A stretch of DNA of 64,000 nt from Mesorhizobium sp. (GTDB lineage: Bacteria; Pseudomonadota; Alphaproteobacteria; Rhizobiales; Rhizobiaceae). A program made the position numbers and the translations under genes. Location: the NCBI GenBank assembly GCA_022833215.1, contig JAIPUZ010000084.1, positions 1-64,000 on the forward strand. The letters are read 5' to 3'. The notes below the pieces were generated by a model, which was not told where the DNA came from, searched no databases, and saw only the letters and a list, made by a program, of their open reading frames with translations. This document shows, one piece after another, positions 42,988 to 49,414 of the stretch (its first letter is position 1; each line of letters opens with the position of its first letter).

Positions 42988-43430
42988 AGTCCTCCCAGTC
43001 TGATGGTGGATTGCCGCCTGATCGTCTTGCCCGGCATGTGAATGCCATGAAACAGTCCCCAGATCGGCAGGCTGGATGCGTCGTAGCTGACGGAAACCAC
43101 GAACTGGCTTCCGTCTGCCATGCTGTCGCGGGCCTCGACTGTTAGCCTTGCCGGATTGATGAAGGCATAACCTGCGCCATTGCGGGCAATGAAATCCGTG
43201 GCAAGGGCGTTGCGTTCGCTGGCGGAAAGGCCGCTCATCGCAATCCGTGCTGCATCGGCGGCAAGTTGCTGCACCGAATGGCTCGCGCCGAAATAGATGC
43301 CATAGGCAATCATTCCGAGAAGCAGCATCAGGAAAATCGGTGAGAGGATCGCAAACTCGACGGCGGTTGCCGCCCGGTTGCATCGGCGAAATCGACCGAA
43401 ACGGTCTATATGAAGCGAATCGTAGACCAT
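42984..43430 (-). CDS. TadE-like pilus assembly protein
   Basis: A 148-residue pseudopilin-like protein. Residues 17-45 carry the hallmark CNRAATAVEFAILSPIFLMLLLG, with the conserved Glu after AAV, and a membrane helix. The extracellular remainder is predicted to be beta-rich. TadE/TadG-type pseudopilins are matured by a TadV-like peptidase and assist Flp/Tad pilus assembly. It forms a coupled pair with the TadG-like gene (overlapping ATGA). A pair of 10-bp direct repeats lies upstream of its start. Confidence 0.82.
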   Translation of the reverse strand: MVYDSLHIDRFGRFRRCNRAATAVEFAILSPIFLMLLLGMIAYGIYFGASHSVQQLAADAARIAMSGLSASERNALATDFIARNGAGYAFINPARLTVEARDSMADGSQFVVSVSYDASSLPIWGLFHGIHMPGKTIRRQSTIRLGGL

Positions 43431-43452
43431 GGGACAACCTATCTCGATTCAT

Positions 43453-43491
43453 CTTTAAGATGCGTGAATCAATATATGCAACTTTAAGATG
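43453..43491. promoter_or_regulatory. paired direct repeats upstream of tadE
   Basis: CTTTAAGATG occurs at 43453-43462 and again at 43482-43491, 29 bp apart, in an AT-rich region between the divergent tadE and binding-protein genes. The first copy also forms a CATCTT/AAGATG palindrome and lies inside a GATTCA/TGAATC inverted repeat. A regulator site is inferred. Confidence 0.4.
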
Positions 43492-43600
43492 AAGAGGTTT
43501 ATAGAGGGTTGCAATCTCCGAAGTCTCGCCGATCGCCCTTGCCCGATATGTTCAAGCTTATATAACCGTGGCGATGACACCGTTCTCCGGGATGCCCGTG

Positions 43601-44644
43601 ATGCGCTTTTTCAGGTTTCTGCTCGTTGCCCTCGCCGGTCTGACTCTTCTGCTTGCGCCGGCTGTTGCACATGCCGCCCGCCAGTTCGTCGACGCGACCG
43701 GCAGAACCGTTGAGGTGCCCGACAAGATCGGGCGCGTGCTTGCGGCCGGCCCGCCCGCTTCGGTGCTGCTCTATGTGCTCTCGCCGGAAAAGATGGTGGG
43801 ATGGGTGCGCAGCCCTTCCACCGCAGAGAAGGAGTTTCTGGCCGAACCCTATCGCGATCTGCCCGAAACCGGCCGCCTGACCGGACGCGGCAACACGGCC
43901 AACATCGAAATGGTGTTGTCGATGAAGCCGGACATCATCATCGATGTCGGCAGCGTCGATGCGACCTATGCCTCGCTGGCCGACCGGGTGCAGGAGCAGA
44001 CCGGCATTCCCTATGTGCTGATCGATGGCGCGTTCGCGCGCACGCCTGAAACCCTGCGCGAAGTGGCCGTTCTGCTTGGCGTGGAGCAGCGTGGCGAGGA
44101 ACTCGCTTCCTATGCCGCGGGCACAATGGACTGGCAGAAGGAGACGGTGGCCGACGTGGCAGACGAAAAACGTCCGCGCGTCTACTACGGTCGCGGGCCG
44201 GACGGGCTGGAGACCGGCGCAGCCGGATCGATCAACATGGAAATCCTCGACGTGGTGGGCGCGCGCAATGTTGCCGCGCTTGCCGGGTCGGGCGGCTTGT
44301 CAAACGTATCGATCGAGCAGGTGCTGGGCTGGAACCCGGATGTGATCCTGACGCTCAGCCCCGATTTCCACAAGTCGGTGATGAGCGACCCGACATGGGC
44401 CAATCTCGCGGCAGTGAAGGAGGGCAGGGTTTATCGGGCGCCGACGCTGCCCTTCGGCTGGTTCGACTCTCCCCCCGGGGTCAACCGCCTGATGGCGGTG
44501 ACCTGGCTGACGGCGATACTCTATCCGGAAAAGGCGGAGTTCGATTTGCGCGAGCGCACCCGCGAATTCTATCATCTCTTTTATCAGGTGGACCTGACAG
44601 ACGCCCAGCTTGACCGGCTTCTGGCGGATTCGGCAGCGCGATGA
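43601..44644 (+). CDS. iron-siderophore-type ABC substrate-binding protein
   Basis: A periplasmic binding protein of the FepB/BtuF class-III fold, about 347 residues. A signal peptide ends near VAHAARQF. The mature protein opens FVDATGRTVEVPDKIGRVLA, a typical start of this family, and has NIEMVLSMKPDIIIDVG and GYNP-like LGWNPDVILTLSPD segments. It binds a metal chelate, possibly a ferric siderophore, haem or other metal complex. ATG at 43601 begins just before the signal peptide; in-frame starts 9, 27 and 33 bases earlier are possible. It overlaps the permease gene by four bases. Confidence 0.85.
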   Translation: MRFFRFLLVALAGLTLLLAPAVAHAARQFVDATGRTVEVPDKIGRVLAAGPPASVLLYVLSPEKMVGWVRSPSTAEKEFLAEPYRDLPETGRLTGRGNTANIEMVLSMKPDIIIDVGSVDATYASLADRVQEQTGIPYVLIDGAFARTPETLREVAVLLGVEQRGEELASYAAGTMDWQKETVADVADEKRPRVYYGRGPDGLETGAAGSINMEILDVVGARNVAALAGSGGLSNVSIEQVLGWNPDVILTLSPDFHKSVMSDPTWANLAAVKEGRVYRAPTLPFGWFDSPPGVNRLMAVTWLTAILYPEKAEFDLRERTREFYHLFYQVDLTDAQLDRLLADSAAR

Positions 44645-45690
44645 GCAGGGGCGAGGCGTTGTCCGCGATCGAAAAGCCGCGACGCGCCTCTCGTATGAAG
44701 GCGGTCTTGCCGGCTGTCCTGCTGGTGGTCGTGGTCGTGCTGGCGCTGTCGGCGGGAAAGTACGACGTTTCGCTTTCCGAGACAGGTCTGGTCGTCTGGT
44801 CACGCCTGACCGGAAACCCCAGCGGCCTCGACGCCACCATGGAAACGGTGGTGTGGAACGTGCGGCTGCCACGTGTGCTGGCCGGCCTGCTGGTCGGTGC
44901 CTCTCTGGCGGCCGCCGGCGCCGTCTATCAGGGCCTGTTCCGCAACCCGCTCGTCTCGCCGGACATTCTCGGCGTGTCGGCGGGCGCAAGCCTCGGCGCG
45001 GTCGGCGGCATTTTCTTCTCCTTGCCGGTTCTGGCGATACAGGGCATGGCCTTCGCGGGCGGGCTCGCGGCCGTGGCGATGGTCTATCTGGTCGGCTCCG
45101 TAGCGCGCGGCCGCGACCCCGTATTGGTGCTGGTGCTGGCGGGGGTGGCGATCGGCGCGCTTCTGGGCGCGTGCATCTCGCTCCTGAAAGTTCTGGCCGA
45201 TCCTTACAATCAGCTTCCGGCCATCACCTTCTGGCTGCTCGGCAGCCTGGCCAGCATCACCCGCGGCGATGCGATCTCGATCCTGCCGGCCGTTCTTCTC
45301 GGCTTGGTGCCGATGGTTCTGCTGCGCTGGCGCATGAACCTGATGACGCTGGACGAGGAGGAGGCCCGCGCGCTAGGGATCGAGACCGGCCGGCTGCGCC
45401 TTTTGCTGATAGCGGCCGCAACGCTGATGACGGCGGCAGCCGTTTCGGTGTCCGGCATCATCGGCTGGGTCGGTTTGGTCATGCCGCACATTGCCCGCAG
45501 TCTTGTCGGGCCGGATTTCGGCCGCCTTCTGCCGGCTTCCCTGATGCTGGGCGGGGGCTATCTCGTCGGCGTCGATGCGCTGGCACGGACCGTAGCCCAG
45601 ATCGAGGTGCCGCTCGGCATTCTGACGGCGGTGATCGGCGCGCCGTTCTTCCTGTGGCTGCTGGCAAGCGGCAGGCGCGGCTGGCAATGA
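44641..45690 (+). CDS. iron-chelate ABC transporter permease (FecCD family)
   Basis: A 349-residue BtuC/FecCD-type permease with about ten membrane helices. Family motifs are visible: RLPRVLAGLLVGASLAAAGAVYQG near residue 77, NPLVSPDILGVSAGASLGA near 103, and GIIGWVGLVMPHIARSLVG near 275, the ATPase contact region. The start overlaps the binding-protein stop and the stop overlaps the ATPase start (both ATGA), giving a tight binding protein-permease-ATPase order. A single permease gene implies a homodimer, as in BtuC. Confidence 0.93.
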   Translation: MSRGEALSAIEKPRRASRMKAVLPAVLLVVVVVLALSAGKYDVSLSETGLVVWSRLTGNPSGLDATMETVVWNVRLPRVLAGLLVGASLAAAGAVYQGLFRNPLVSPDILGVSAGASLGAVGGIFFSLPVLAIQGMAFAGGLAAVAMVYLVGSVARGRDPVLVLVLAGVAIGALLGACISLLKVLADPYNQLPAITFWLLGSLASITRGDAISILPAVLLGLVPMVLLRWRMNLMTLDEEEARALGIETGRLRLLLIAAATLMTAAAVSVSGIIGWVGLVMPHIARSLVGPDFGRLLPASLMLGGGYLVGVDALARTVAQIEVPLGILTAVIGAPFFLWLLASGRRGWQ

Positions 45691-46475
45691 TGATGGCGGC
45701 GCAGGACCTCGCTTTCGGCTACCGGGGTACTCCGGTGGGGCAGGGGGTGACGCTCGCCGTTGAGGCGGGGCGGGTACTCTGCCTTCTGGGGCCGAACGGT
45801 TGCGGAAAGACAACGCTGTTTCGCACCCTGCTCGGCCTGCTGCCGCCGCTGGGCGGTAAGCTGGAACTGCATGGGCGGCCGGTCATGGAGTTCAGCCGTT
45901 CGGAATTTGCCCGTCACGTCGCCTATGTGCCGCAGGCCGGGTCCAGCTACTTCCCGTTCAGCGTCATCGATGTGGTGACCATGGCGCGCGCCAGTCGCAT
46001 CGGCGCCTTCGCCACGCCTTCCGCTCATGACCGGCAGATCGCGCAGGACGCTCTGGAACGCCTTGGCCTTCAGCATCTTGCCCGGCGATCCTTTACCGAG
46101 ATCAGCGGCGGCGAGCGGTAGATGACGCTGATCGCGCGGGCTCTGGCGCAGGAGGCGGAACTCGTCATCATGGACGAACCGACCGCCAGTCTGGACTTCG
46201 GCAACCAGGCAAAGGTTCTGGACTGCATCAACGAACTGCGCGGCTCCGGCCTTGCAATCGTGCTCTCCACGCACGATCCCGGCCATGCCTTTGCCTGCGC
46301 CGACAACGTGGCGTTGATGAAAAGAGGGCAGATCGTGGGCGAAGGGGCGCCACAGGCCGCCGTCACGCCGGTCGCGCTGCACAATCTTTATGGCGTCGAG
46401 GTTGCCGTGGAATTCATGGCGGGAGCCGGGCGCAGCATATGCGCGCCGGCACTCGGCCGCTTCAGGCAGGAGTGA
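45687..46475 (+). pseudogene. iron-chelate ABC ATPase, interrupted by amber codon
   Basis: This frame encodes a FecE/FepC-type ATPase of about 262 residues. Walker A is LGPNGCGKTTL near 35, the Q-loop is YVPQAGSSYFPF, and Walker B is [14 protein letters not shown] near 158. The frame is broken by TAG at 46119-46121, directly after the signature motif SGGER; the next residues [10 protein letters not shown] continue the family sequence exactly. Related proteins have SGGERQ, so one C-to-T change of CAG explains it. No frameshift or deletion is present. It could be a true nonsense mutation, a suppressed amber, or a sequencing error. The 3' part could also be translated from the ATG right after the TAG, but would lack the P-loop. 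Confidence 0.85.
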
Positions 46476-46480
46476 CGGGA

Positions 46481-46972
46481 ATGGTAAGGGAAAACGAAAT
46501 CCGCCCGGGCGAGCGAGCCGTGGACGTGCCGCCCGCCACCGATGCCGGGCTGGTGTTCATCGGGCGCATCCACACACCCTGGACCTCGCGCATGGCGACG
46601 CCGCGGCAGGGGCGTCGCGACGGGCCCATCTGCCGCATCGAGGTTTTCGAACCATGGGTCGGGGCGCTGGCGAATATCGAGGAGTTCGAGGAACTGGAGG
46701 TGCTCTACTGGCTGCACCTGTCGCGGCGCGATCTGGTGCTGCAAAGCCCGGCGAGCGACGGAACGACACGCGGCACCTTTTCCATCCGTTCGCCAGCGCG
46801 GCCCAACCCCATCGGCACTTCCATCGTCAGGCTGGTCGGGTGCGAGGCGAATAGCCTGCTTGTGCAGGGAATGGATTGCCTGGACGGCACCCCCTTGCTG
46901 GACCTGAAGCCCGAACGCACCGGCTTCAAGCCAATCGCCCCGCCTCAGCCGGGCGATTTCGAGACCGGCTGA
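46481..46972 (+). CDS. TrmO-like tRNA methyltransferase domain protein (TsaA/VirR)
   Basis: A 163-residue protein of the TsaA/TrmO family; E. coli TrmO is a SAM-dependent methyltransferase for N6-threonylcarbamoyl-adenosine-37 in tRNA, and Agrobacterium VirR is a relative. Family motifs are [18 protein letters not shown] near residue 29, [24 protein letters not shown] near 57, [18 protein letters not shown] near 100 and a C-terminal [10 protein letters not shown]. It lacks the longer C-terminal domain of E. coli TrmO. ATG at 46481 has a GGAG box upstream and follows the ATPase by only five bases, so it belongs to the metal-uptake operon. Confidence 0.85.
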
Positions 46973-46990
46973 AGGCGTGTGAGCCCCTGA

Positions 46991-47026
46991 AAGAACTGCC
47001 GGCAATCGATATTGGCGGCAGTTCTT
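46991..47026. terminator. bidirectional intrinsic terminator
   Basis: Arms AAGAACTGCCG and CGGCAGTTCTT pair perfectly (11 bp), extended by CAAT/ATTG after one mismatch, around a CGAT loop. T-rich tracts follow on both strands. It lies between the convergent trmO-like gene and the receptor gene. Confidence 0.8.
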
Positions 47027-47039
47027 CTTGGCGCGCGTT

Positions 47040-49220
47040 TCAGAACGTCACACGCGAATTGAGGTAGAAAGTGCGTCCCGGCTCGGGGAACCCGTCAGCC
47101 AGCTCGTAGTTGCGGTCGAAGATGTTGCGAACGCCAGCGGTGAACGACATCTGATCGTTGAACTCGTAGTGGACATTGAGGTTCGCGAGACCAAAGCCGG
47201 GCTTGGTTGCAAATTTACCTCCGCTGATGCTCGCCCAGCGTGAGCTCGACAACTCGACGCCCGGGGTGATGGTCAGCTTCTCGACCGGACGCCAGTGCGC
47301 ATAGAGATAGGCGATATGTTCTGGCCGGCCATCGGGTTTCAGGTCCGGGTTTCCAGGGTTGCGTAGCTCGCTTTTGAGGAGGGTGTAGTTTCCGCCCAGC
47401 GTCAGCCACGACAGCATGTCCCATTCGCCCGAAACCTCGAAGCCATAGTAGGTGGCTTTGCCGATATTCTGAGACTGTTTGCAATCTTTCGTTTCATCTT
47501 CAGGGCATGCGAAGCCGCCGATGGATTCAATGGCATTTCCAACCCGGCTGTAGAAAACAGCGCCGCCAGCTCTTGCATCGCCGTTCAGCAGGTTGGCGGA
47601 GCCGCCGATCTCGTAGTTGACCGCACGTTCCGGCCCCAGATTGGGGTTCTCGATATAATTGCCCCGGCGCGAGCTGTAGCGCTCGAACAGGGTTGGAAAA
47701 CGCGTGCGATTGGAAATGCTGGCATGCAACTCCGTGTCAGCTGTCGGACGCCAGATAGCAGCTCCCTGCCAGTTGAAGGCGTGGTTATCGAATAGGGGAA
47801 ACTCGCCGAATTCCTTGTTGGAATAGTATTCTGCGCGCCGTGTCTTGTACCAGTCGTAGCTGACGCCTCCCACCAGATCGAGCGTATCCGTGGCGTGAAA
47901 AGTGTTCTCGGCAGCCACCGACCACGTGTCTTCGATCCGGCGCTGCAGGGGGAATATGTCCGCCGGCGTGACATCCGGCGCATAGTGGCTCCACCGCCTG
48001 TGAACGTCTCGGCGATAGTGGAAAGCCGTCTTCAGCGTATTCATGGGGATCAGTTCAGTTCCGCCTTCGATGCTGAAGCCATAGGCGTAGTCGTTGTAGT
48101 AGCTGTTTTCCGAATCCTTGGTCTTCTGCTCGCTAAACGTCGAATCGTCGAAGAAGGCACCGCGGTTGTCGAAGGTATTATAATAGGACTTCGTTTTGAT
48201 GTAGGACGCATCGCCTATCTGCGTATGCGAGTTGAACGATGCCGTCGAAACGTCCCACTGGGGCCAGGACCAGTTGTTCTGATACTTGCCGGTTATCGGT
48301 GACGGGGTGATGCCGCGCACATTGTCGCGAACGTGATAGGGGGCGCCTTTGTCGCCTTCCTGCTTCGTATAGCTGACAACATATTCATCTGTGTCGTTTG
48401 GCGTGAAACCTGCCTTGAGGTTGATGCGCCAGTCTTTCGTCTGGCTGAAATCGCGTTTTCCGGATTCCTGCACAGGATCACCGTTGCCGACGGGAACAGG
48501 ATCGTACTTGCGGGACAGGAACCAGCCGTCACTGTCACGAAGAGAACCGCTTGCCTGCAGGTAGAACATATCCTGACGGGTGCCGACGGCACCGAACAGG
48601 TTGTGGGCGGAAAGATGCCCGGTGTTGCCGAACTCGACACCCGCGCGCAACTCGCCTTCAAGCTCCTTTGTGGGCTTGCGTGTTACAAGATTGATCTGGC
48701 CCCCCATTCCGCCGGGCCCATTCAGCACTGAGGCATAGCCTTTGTGAACCTGAATTTCGGCAAGATCCGGGGTCAGGAACCTGCCGTAGTCGAGCCGGTT
48801 GTCGGCAGGCAGGTAGATGCGGACGCCATCGATTGACAAAGGTACGCGCCAGCGGTCGAAACCGCGCACATACACCATGCGCTCGTTTCTCTGGCCGCCG
48901 GAGTTGGTGGATTCCACGCCGGGAACGGTGCGTAGTGCATCATCCAGCGTGTTGCGGTTCTGGCCACGTACGTCTTCTGCGGAAACCACGCTCTGCGAAA
49001 CCGCCTGACCGCTGGTTCCTCCAGCCTGCCGGTCGCCATAGACGTCGATGCGCCCCAGAACGAAAACGTCCTCATCGGCCTTTCTGGCGCGAGGCTTCTT
49101 GTCCTTCTCGTTGGACCGCACCCCGGAAATTTCTTCGCCGGCTGGCTGCGCCGAAGCGCTCTGAGCGGACAGGATCGTTGCCAACGCGGTTATCGTTGAC
49201 CCAATCAGGATATATCGCAA
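47040..49220 (-). CDS. TonB-dependent outer-membrane receptor
   Basis: A 726-residue receptor. A signal peptide ends near SASAQPAG. A plug domain follows, with VVSAEDVRGQNRNTLDDALRTVPGV near 83, VYVRGFD and the GGQINLVTRKP motif near 177; then a 22-strand barrel ends in an aromatic residue (SRVTF). It would import a metal chelate across the outer membrane using TonB energy and hand it to the neighbouring binding protein and FecCD-type permease. The start is TTG with a GGGGAAG box seven bases upstream. A candidate iron-type regulatory site and AT-rich promoter region lie upstream. The ligand is not predictable from the sequence. Confidence 0.9.
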   Translation of the reverse strand: MRYILIGSTITALATILSAQSASAQPAGEEISGVRSNEKDKKPRARKADEDVFVLGRIDVYGDRQAGGTSGQAVSQSVVSAEDVRGQNRNTLDDALRTVPGVESTNSGGQRNERMVYVRGFDRWRVPLSIDGVRIYLPADNRLDYGRFLTPDLAEIQVHKGYASVLNGPGGMGGQINLVTRKPTKELEGELRAGVEFGNTGHLSAHNLFGAVGTRQDMFYLQASGSLRDSDGWFLSRKYDPVPVGNGDPVQESGKRDFSQTKDWRINLKAGFTPNDTDEYVVSYTKQEGDKGAPYHVRDNVRGITPSPITGKYQNNWSWPQWDVSTASFNSHTQIGDASYIKTKSYYNTFDNRGAFFDDSTFSEQKTKDSENSYYNDYAYGFSIEGGTELIPMNTLKTAFHYRRDVHRRWSHYAPDVTPADIFPLQRRIEDTWSVAAENTFHATDTLDLVGGVSYDWYKTRRAEYYSNKEFGEFPLFDNHAFNWQGAAIWRPTADTELHASISNRTRFPTLFERYSSRRGNYIENPNLGPERAVNYEIGGSANLLNGDARAGGAVFYSRVGNAIESIGGFACPEDETKDCKQSQNIGKATYYGFEVSGEWDMLSWLTLGGNYTLLKSELRNPGNPDLKPDGRPEHIAYLYAHWRPVEKLTITPGVELSSSRWASISGGKFATKPGFGLANLNVHYEFNDQMSFTAGVRNIFDRNYELADGFPEPGRTFYLNSRVTF

Positions 49221-49249
49221 TTGATTCTTCCCCTAAGAAAATTCAAATA

Positions 49250-49271
49250 GATAATGATAGTTCGATACGAA
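49250..49271. promoter_or_regulatory. candidate iron-responsive site
   Basis: GATAATGATAG resembles half of a Fur box and is followed directly by the palindrome TTCGATACGAA. It lies about 30 bp upstream of the receptor start within an AT-rich region. Fur, Irr or RirA control cannot be told apart here. Confidence 0.4.
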
Positions 49272-49414
49272 ATTTCATCCTTCAGAATCGAATTGTTATA
49301 TTCATAAAAATATATCGATGCCCTGCGCAAGGGCAGTTGATTGGACCAGAGGGTGCGGTGGATTGTCACCCGCAGGACCATTGCGGATGATTGGGCGCTT
49401 CTCTATATCGATAG

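Follow-up and report, generated by a model that had tools for sequence, protein, structure and literature searches.

MolBC-A of Haemophilus influenzae (HI1470-HI1472; PDB 2nq2, 3psa) has been described as importing molybdate with low affinity, alongside ModBC-A (PMC4031551). In S. aureus, the ATPase FhuC powers several importers whose operons are without an ATPase of their own (PMC10147376). Where translation restarts after termination, stop and start codons were reported in E. coli and H. volcanii to require overlap or a very short distance, and in three E. coli gene pairs a distance of 2 nt cost restart 5, 20 and 70% (PMC10666635). Searches of the literature found no paper on MolBC in Mesorhizobium among the 8 listed of 114, and none tying TrmO/TsaA to such importers among the ten titles and abstract openings listed of 19.

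The 64,000-nucleotide stretch of DNA analysed here (the window) comes from a Mesorhizobium-related soil bacterium. Genes encoding a periplasmic binding protein, a FecCD permease, an ATPase and a TrmO/TsaA-like protein follow one another on its plus strand (Table 1). The binding protein was of the Peripla_BP_2 class (PF01497, E = 1.2e-20), and the FecCD permease domain was matched over positions 1-310 of 311 (PF01032, E = 1.1e-87). Of the components of a Type II (FecCD/BtuCD/MolBC) importer, the permease and the binding protein were therefore present and an uninterrupted ATPase was not. The importer appears to be of the MolBC/FecCD type, with a putative tie to molybdate or tungstate that comes from sequence similarity only.

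The ATPase frame runs from an ATG at 45687, a start placed by alignment with relatives and overlapping the permease stop (ATGA), to a TAG at 46119-46121; it reopens at the ATG at 46122 and continues to a TGA at 46473-46475 with no further stops. The letters GPNGCGKT, SGGER, VIMDEP, SLD and STHD were read in the two pieces, and we take these to be the Walker A motif, the signature, the Walker B motif, the D-loop and the H-loop, respectively, together with a Q-loop. The motifs of a single ATPase chain were thus all there, split by the TAG. ABC_tran was found in the first piece (Pfam, E = 2e-20), while the sole Pfam match of the second piece was to the weak AAA_21 model (2.3e-06). In NCBIfam, both pieces matched FecE-, heme- and B12-type importer ATPase models, below the whole-protein cut-offs among the matches listed. 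A first-pass annotation, made from the letters of the window, had described the frame as kept except for this TAG, in agreement with the frame and the motifs found in both pieces. It had also placed an amber codon inside the ABC signature; the codon is amber, but it sits where the Gln codon after SGGER would be and so lies one codon past the signature.

Table 1. Features of the importer locus, with positions in the window.
Feature	Positions	Strand
Periplasmic binding protein (Peripla_BP_2), intact	43568..44644	+
FecCD-type permease, intact; 4-base overlap (ATGA) with the binding-protein stop	44641..45690	+
ATPase first piece, 144 aa: Walker A, Q-loop, SGGER	45687..46118	+
TAG; Gln in 84/84 alignable relatives	46119..46121	+
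ATPase second piece, 117 aa, its ATG abutting the TAG: Walker B, D-loop, H-loop	46122..46475	+
TrmO/TsaA-like gene, intact; start 46439 or 46481	46439..46972	+
TonB-dependent receptor, convergent with the operon	47040..49220	-

The permease was searched for in 61 genomes (the strain's own, 36 of the genus and 24 of the order) and in a named scan (best 80 of 583 relatives), and the two scans together gave 109 comparison loci. Both ATPase pieces could be aligned with exactly one codon between them in 84 cases. The residue after SGGER was Gln in every one of these 84 ATPases, as the first-pass annotation had expected; none kept a TAG, contrary to what recoding would predict. The remaining 25 of the 109 loci stood outside this scoring (22 had no such pair and three were without one or both pieces), and frameshifted copies would also be omitted by it. 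Eighty of the 84 aligned ATPases had an ortholog-like permease no more than 200 bases away, no internal stop was found in the 80 ortholog-like operons compared, and four of the 84 aligned frames had a stop only close to their natural ends. As a base rate, a stop flag was seen on at least five permease matches in other genomes, among the matches listed.

In the nearest relative, G085 (permease 87%, first piece 75%, second piece 83%, TrmO 88%), and in Mesorhizobium sp. Root552, which is listed under the genus of the window and to which the relative G112 is identical over 8000 bases, the ATPase was intact and had the Gln. When 146 genomes of the genus were searched (18 candidates scored per listed genome), nine ATPases had at least 59% identity to that of G085, G085 included, and a TAG was present in two of the nine: those of the window and of another genome, G114. 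Across 394 genomes of the family (6 candidates scored per listed genome), 30 had a match at E<=1e-50, and a stop occurred in that of the window only. The TrmO/TsaA-like gene was seen in 16 of the 80 named loci, either preceding the transporter genes or following them. A transporter set with TrmO was also annotated on some plasmids of Rhizobium and Paracoccus, at approximately 66-70% DNA identity; no plasmid copy with more than 90% identity was found in the 142 plasmid records with a match, from which near records were possibly left out.

The TAG of G114 is a separate one, at codon 95 of the orthologous ATPase (L200:2266-2268), where Root552 has Glu. At the site of the window's TAG, G114 has Gln; the comparison with near relatives that the first-pass annotation had proposed therefore returned Gln at this site in G085, Root552 and G114 alike. 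The TAG of G114 is directly followed by ATG, as in the window (distance 0), and the binding protein and permease genes are open in both. Among the stops that could arise in one step, those directly before an ATG numbered 2 of 54 in G085, 3 of 57 in Root552 and, with the TAG itself excluded, 1 of 48 in the window's own pieces. The product for two ATG-abutting stops by chance was approximately 0.002, or 0.012 when GTG and TTG were also counted, for a pattern spotted after the fact. Since both ambers of this clade abut an ATG, which is rare for one-step stops, restart may matter. The first-pass annotation made no remark on the abutting ATG of the window, and the amber of G114 was beyond what could be seen from the window's letters.

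Relative-rate tests were carried out on the window against G085, its intact sister, with up to four outgroups. With Root552 as the outgroup, the changes on the window and G085 sides were 7 v 14 in the first ATPase piece and 3 v 7 in the second. The lowest p value across every segment and outgroup was 0.108; an excess on the window side was never significant, and with some outgroups it was slight in the permease (13 v 10), in TrmO (8 v 6) and, with G036, in the second piece (5 v 4). Between the window and G085, dN/dS was approximately 0.21 in the first piece and 0.16 in the second, and 0.11-0.12 for the binding protein, permease and TrmO. At positions 95% conserved in the other sequences, the window departed at 1 of 26 in the first piece and 0 of 19 in the second, counts identical to those of the intact Root552; the single departure ranked the first piece 75th of 81, with many ties at 0. 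The divergence of the first piece between the window and G085, relative to that of the permease, exceeded 94% of 156 pairs, while the second piece was ordinary (40%); the excess of the first piece sat on the G085 side, although not significantly.

Synonymous divergence between the window and G085 was approximately 0.85 in the second piece, so that a second piece under no selection at any point of the window branch would, by a rough estimate, have gathered replacements on the order of a hundred. Since only 3 window-side changes were counted there, the unselected time would be at most roughly a tenth of the branch. Hidden decay in the second piece was considered and rejected, the conserved-position, relative-rate and divergence comparisons having given no sign of it. 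Neither relaxed selection nor further decay was detected, as is expected if a pseudogene is very young. Given that neither piece is accelerated compared to the intact G085, the TAG either arose recently, is an error or is tolerated. The conserved-position and relative-rate tests also upheld the statement of the first-pass annotation that the flanks are free of other decay, with the permease and binding protein intact.

The main rival to a genuine mutation is a sequencing or assembly error in a strain that truly has a sense codon at this site, which we regard as possible but rather unlikely. The genome is a draft of 4.55 Mb in 131 contigs with 4.43% contamination, there is no decay in either ATPase piece, and a second conserved transporter gene of the draft has a lone TAG, all of which fit an error. 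This second gene, on the minus strand of contig C93 (L196), encodes a BPD_transp_1 permease, and its in-frame TAG, at C93:5007-5005, is followed by TGG. Against an error, no homopolymer or repeat was seen by eye at the TAG of the ATPase, G114 has this gene broken at a different codon, and internal stops are rare across the families scored in the genome of the strain. For ABC_tran, 150 matches were scored out of 252 candidates and one, this ATPase, had a stop; the figures were 1 of 136 for BPD_transp_1, 0 of 30 for SDR and 1 of 35 for MFS, the last with two TGA codons in a match overlapping a second MFS match. A search of the same genome with the ModC model flagged 3 of 138 matches, namely this TAG and two TGA codons (C8, C5); the latter probably reflect matches overrunning natural ends, as the ABC_tran search has those ATPases free of stops. 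Genome-wide reassignment of TAG was rejected on the rarity of internal stops in the four families (1/150, 1/136, 1/35, 0/30). Amber suppression or recoding, which would put an amino acid at the TAG and which the first-pass annotation had listed among its options, can be given almost no credence. The intact frame on either side of the TAG would suit it, but the tRNA search that was to reveal a suppressor, with 45 Infernal matches in an incomplete draft and anticodons assigned by ARAGORN, named no CTA anticodon among them, one weak match at a contig end being left unnamed. The Trp, Ile(GAT) and Ala(TGC) anticodons were also not named among the 45 matches, which indicates that the draft is incomplete and that some of its tRNAs are missing. 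No tRNA-Trp was found in this assembly by family search or pattern. A first suppressor pattern gave five matches (60 in the backwards control), two of them tRNA-Glu genes and three without an ARAGORN tRNA, and a second pattern, for a Trp-type suppressor, had no match in the draft. The fold 3' of the TAG was ordinary (z 0.41) and no Rfam family matched within 43400-49400, on which grounds a readthrough-promoting RNA was rejected as well, and relatives do not keep the TAG. With no CTA anticodon and no unusual fold, suppression is unlikely, and this suggestion of the first-pass annotation was not supported.

Two further readings accept the stop as real and keep the importer working. The ATPase could be made as two polypeptides, through restart at the abutting ATG, with the halves assembling into a working nucleotide-binding domain; we consider this minority reading improbable. 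As a split gene would require, a start codon lies at the stop (TAG|ATG): no base separates the two in the window, and the same arose independently in G114, which suits the overlap or very short distance needed elsewhere (PMC10666635). ATGA overlaps already occur at both upstream junctions of the operon, and both ATPase pieces are conserved. However, the cut would fall at the signature helix, and pairing with the anti-Shine-Dalgarno sequence appears unremarkable before ATG 46122 (-4.3 kcal/mol, a value equalled or surpassed at 3 of 20 internal ATGs) and is weaker before the ATG of G114 (-2.1). A literature search for split-gene restart gave no paper. The window and G114 also have their breaks at different codons, so they share no conserved split form. 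It is likewise doubtful, and again a minority reading, that an ATPase from a different FecCD operon drives the permease and keeps uptake going. Six other loci of the genome combine a FecCD permease with an ATPase, at 27-41% identity where a piece matched (the first piece at five of the six, the second at all six). The permease was without an adjacent ATPase at 4 of the 80 named loci (L095, L108, L114, L116), and at L095, L108 and L116, although not at L114, a second complete binding protein-permease-ATPase set was present in the same locus. That the ortholog-like binding protein and permease lack a neighbouring ATPase at L095, L116 and L108 suggests ATPase sharing, as reported for FhuC, which serves several ATPase-less importer operons in S. 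aureus (PMC10147376). Against borrowing, none of the other FecCD permeases among the matches listed is on this contig, the ATPases of the six loci resemble this one only distantly, and their binding to this permease is putative. The first-pass annotation had foreseen that, with a real stop, uptake would be lost or need another ATPase: the six FecCD loci make the latter possible, but a second copy of the window's ATPase was not seen at E<=1e-50 (6 and 18 of 187 candidates scored). Because the same gene is broken twice at ATG-abutting stops while the binding protein and permease stay open, it could be that a small clade tolerates two separately translated ATPase pieces or that another operon's ATPase replaces them; this we hold to be unlikely.

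The locus is probably best explained by a nonsense mutation, real and recent, that altered a single base in the gene for a dispensable ATPase within a MolBC/FecCD-type importer. The TAG base would then be real in the organism and not an error. The in-frame TAG is an inactivating change of the kind that defines a pseudogene, with inactivation itself presumed, and the recent loss proposed by the first-pass annotation is the best fit, given that Gln is retained here by the nearest relatives and that evolution is no faster in either half than in the intact copy. A single-base nonsense change would recently have created the TAG; the ribosome would halt after SGGER, so that no full-length ATPase would be made, and import through this binding protein and permease would be lost or strongly reduced, with loss of transport presumed. 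The ATPase seems dispensable in this lineage because of a ModC-type importer gene, the other FecCD loci and the independent break in a near relative. The canonical ModC of the genome scored 451 bits against a cut-off of 285, and with it and six FecCD loci with ATPases the loss could be bearable. A recent nonsense mutation fits less well with both pieces looking selected, as if still used, and with two ambers that abut an ATG in one clade, a first piece ranked 75th of 81 and its divergence beyond 94% of pairs; moreover, the base rests on one draft assembly of one genome of the species. A lone nonsense change in a transporter ATPase is ordinary, and the amber of G114 and the ATPase-less loci lift this case modestly above an everyday pseudogene. 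Since the same subunit is repeatedly broken or missing while the permease is kept, ATPase sharing among Gram-negative FecCD importers, or tolerance of a split ATPase, becomes directly testable.

Compared to MolBC-A, the best solved match of the permease was HI1471/MolB (E = 3e-68), that of the first ATPase piece was HI1470 (8.7e-26), and the binding protein also matched HI_1472 (3.6e-24). In contrast, the binding protein was nearer to the solved structures 4pag (6e-47) and 4ovk (7.9e-26), both entitled 'periplasmic binding protein', and the second ATPase piece matched other ATPases (best DppD, 1e-16) better than HI1470 (3.6e-10). Furthermore, a TrmO-like gene and a TonB receptor lie alongside the operon here, and the ATPase is interrupted. 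S. aureus FhuC sets a precedent by serving permease operons that contain no ATPase gene (PMC10147376); there, sharing is reported, whereas here it is putative. The locus resembles young nonsense-interrupted transporter pseudogenes in its single stop and in the intact state of the remainder, the neighbours and the relatives. What sets it apart from them is the separate amber that a near relative carries in this gene, with an ATG directly behind each of the two stops.
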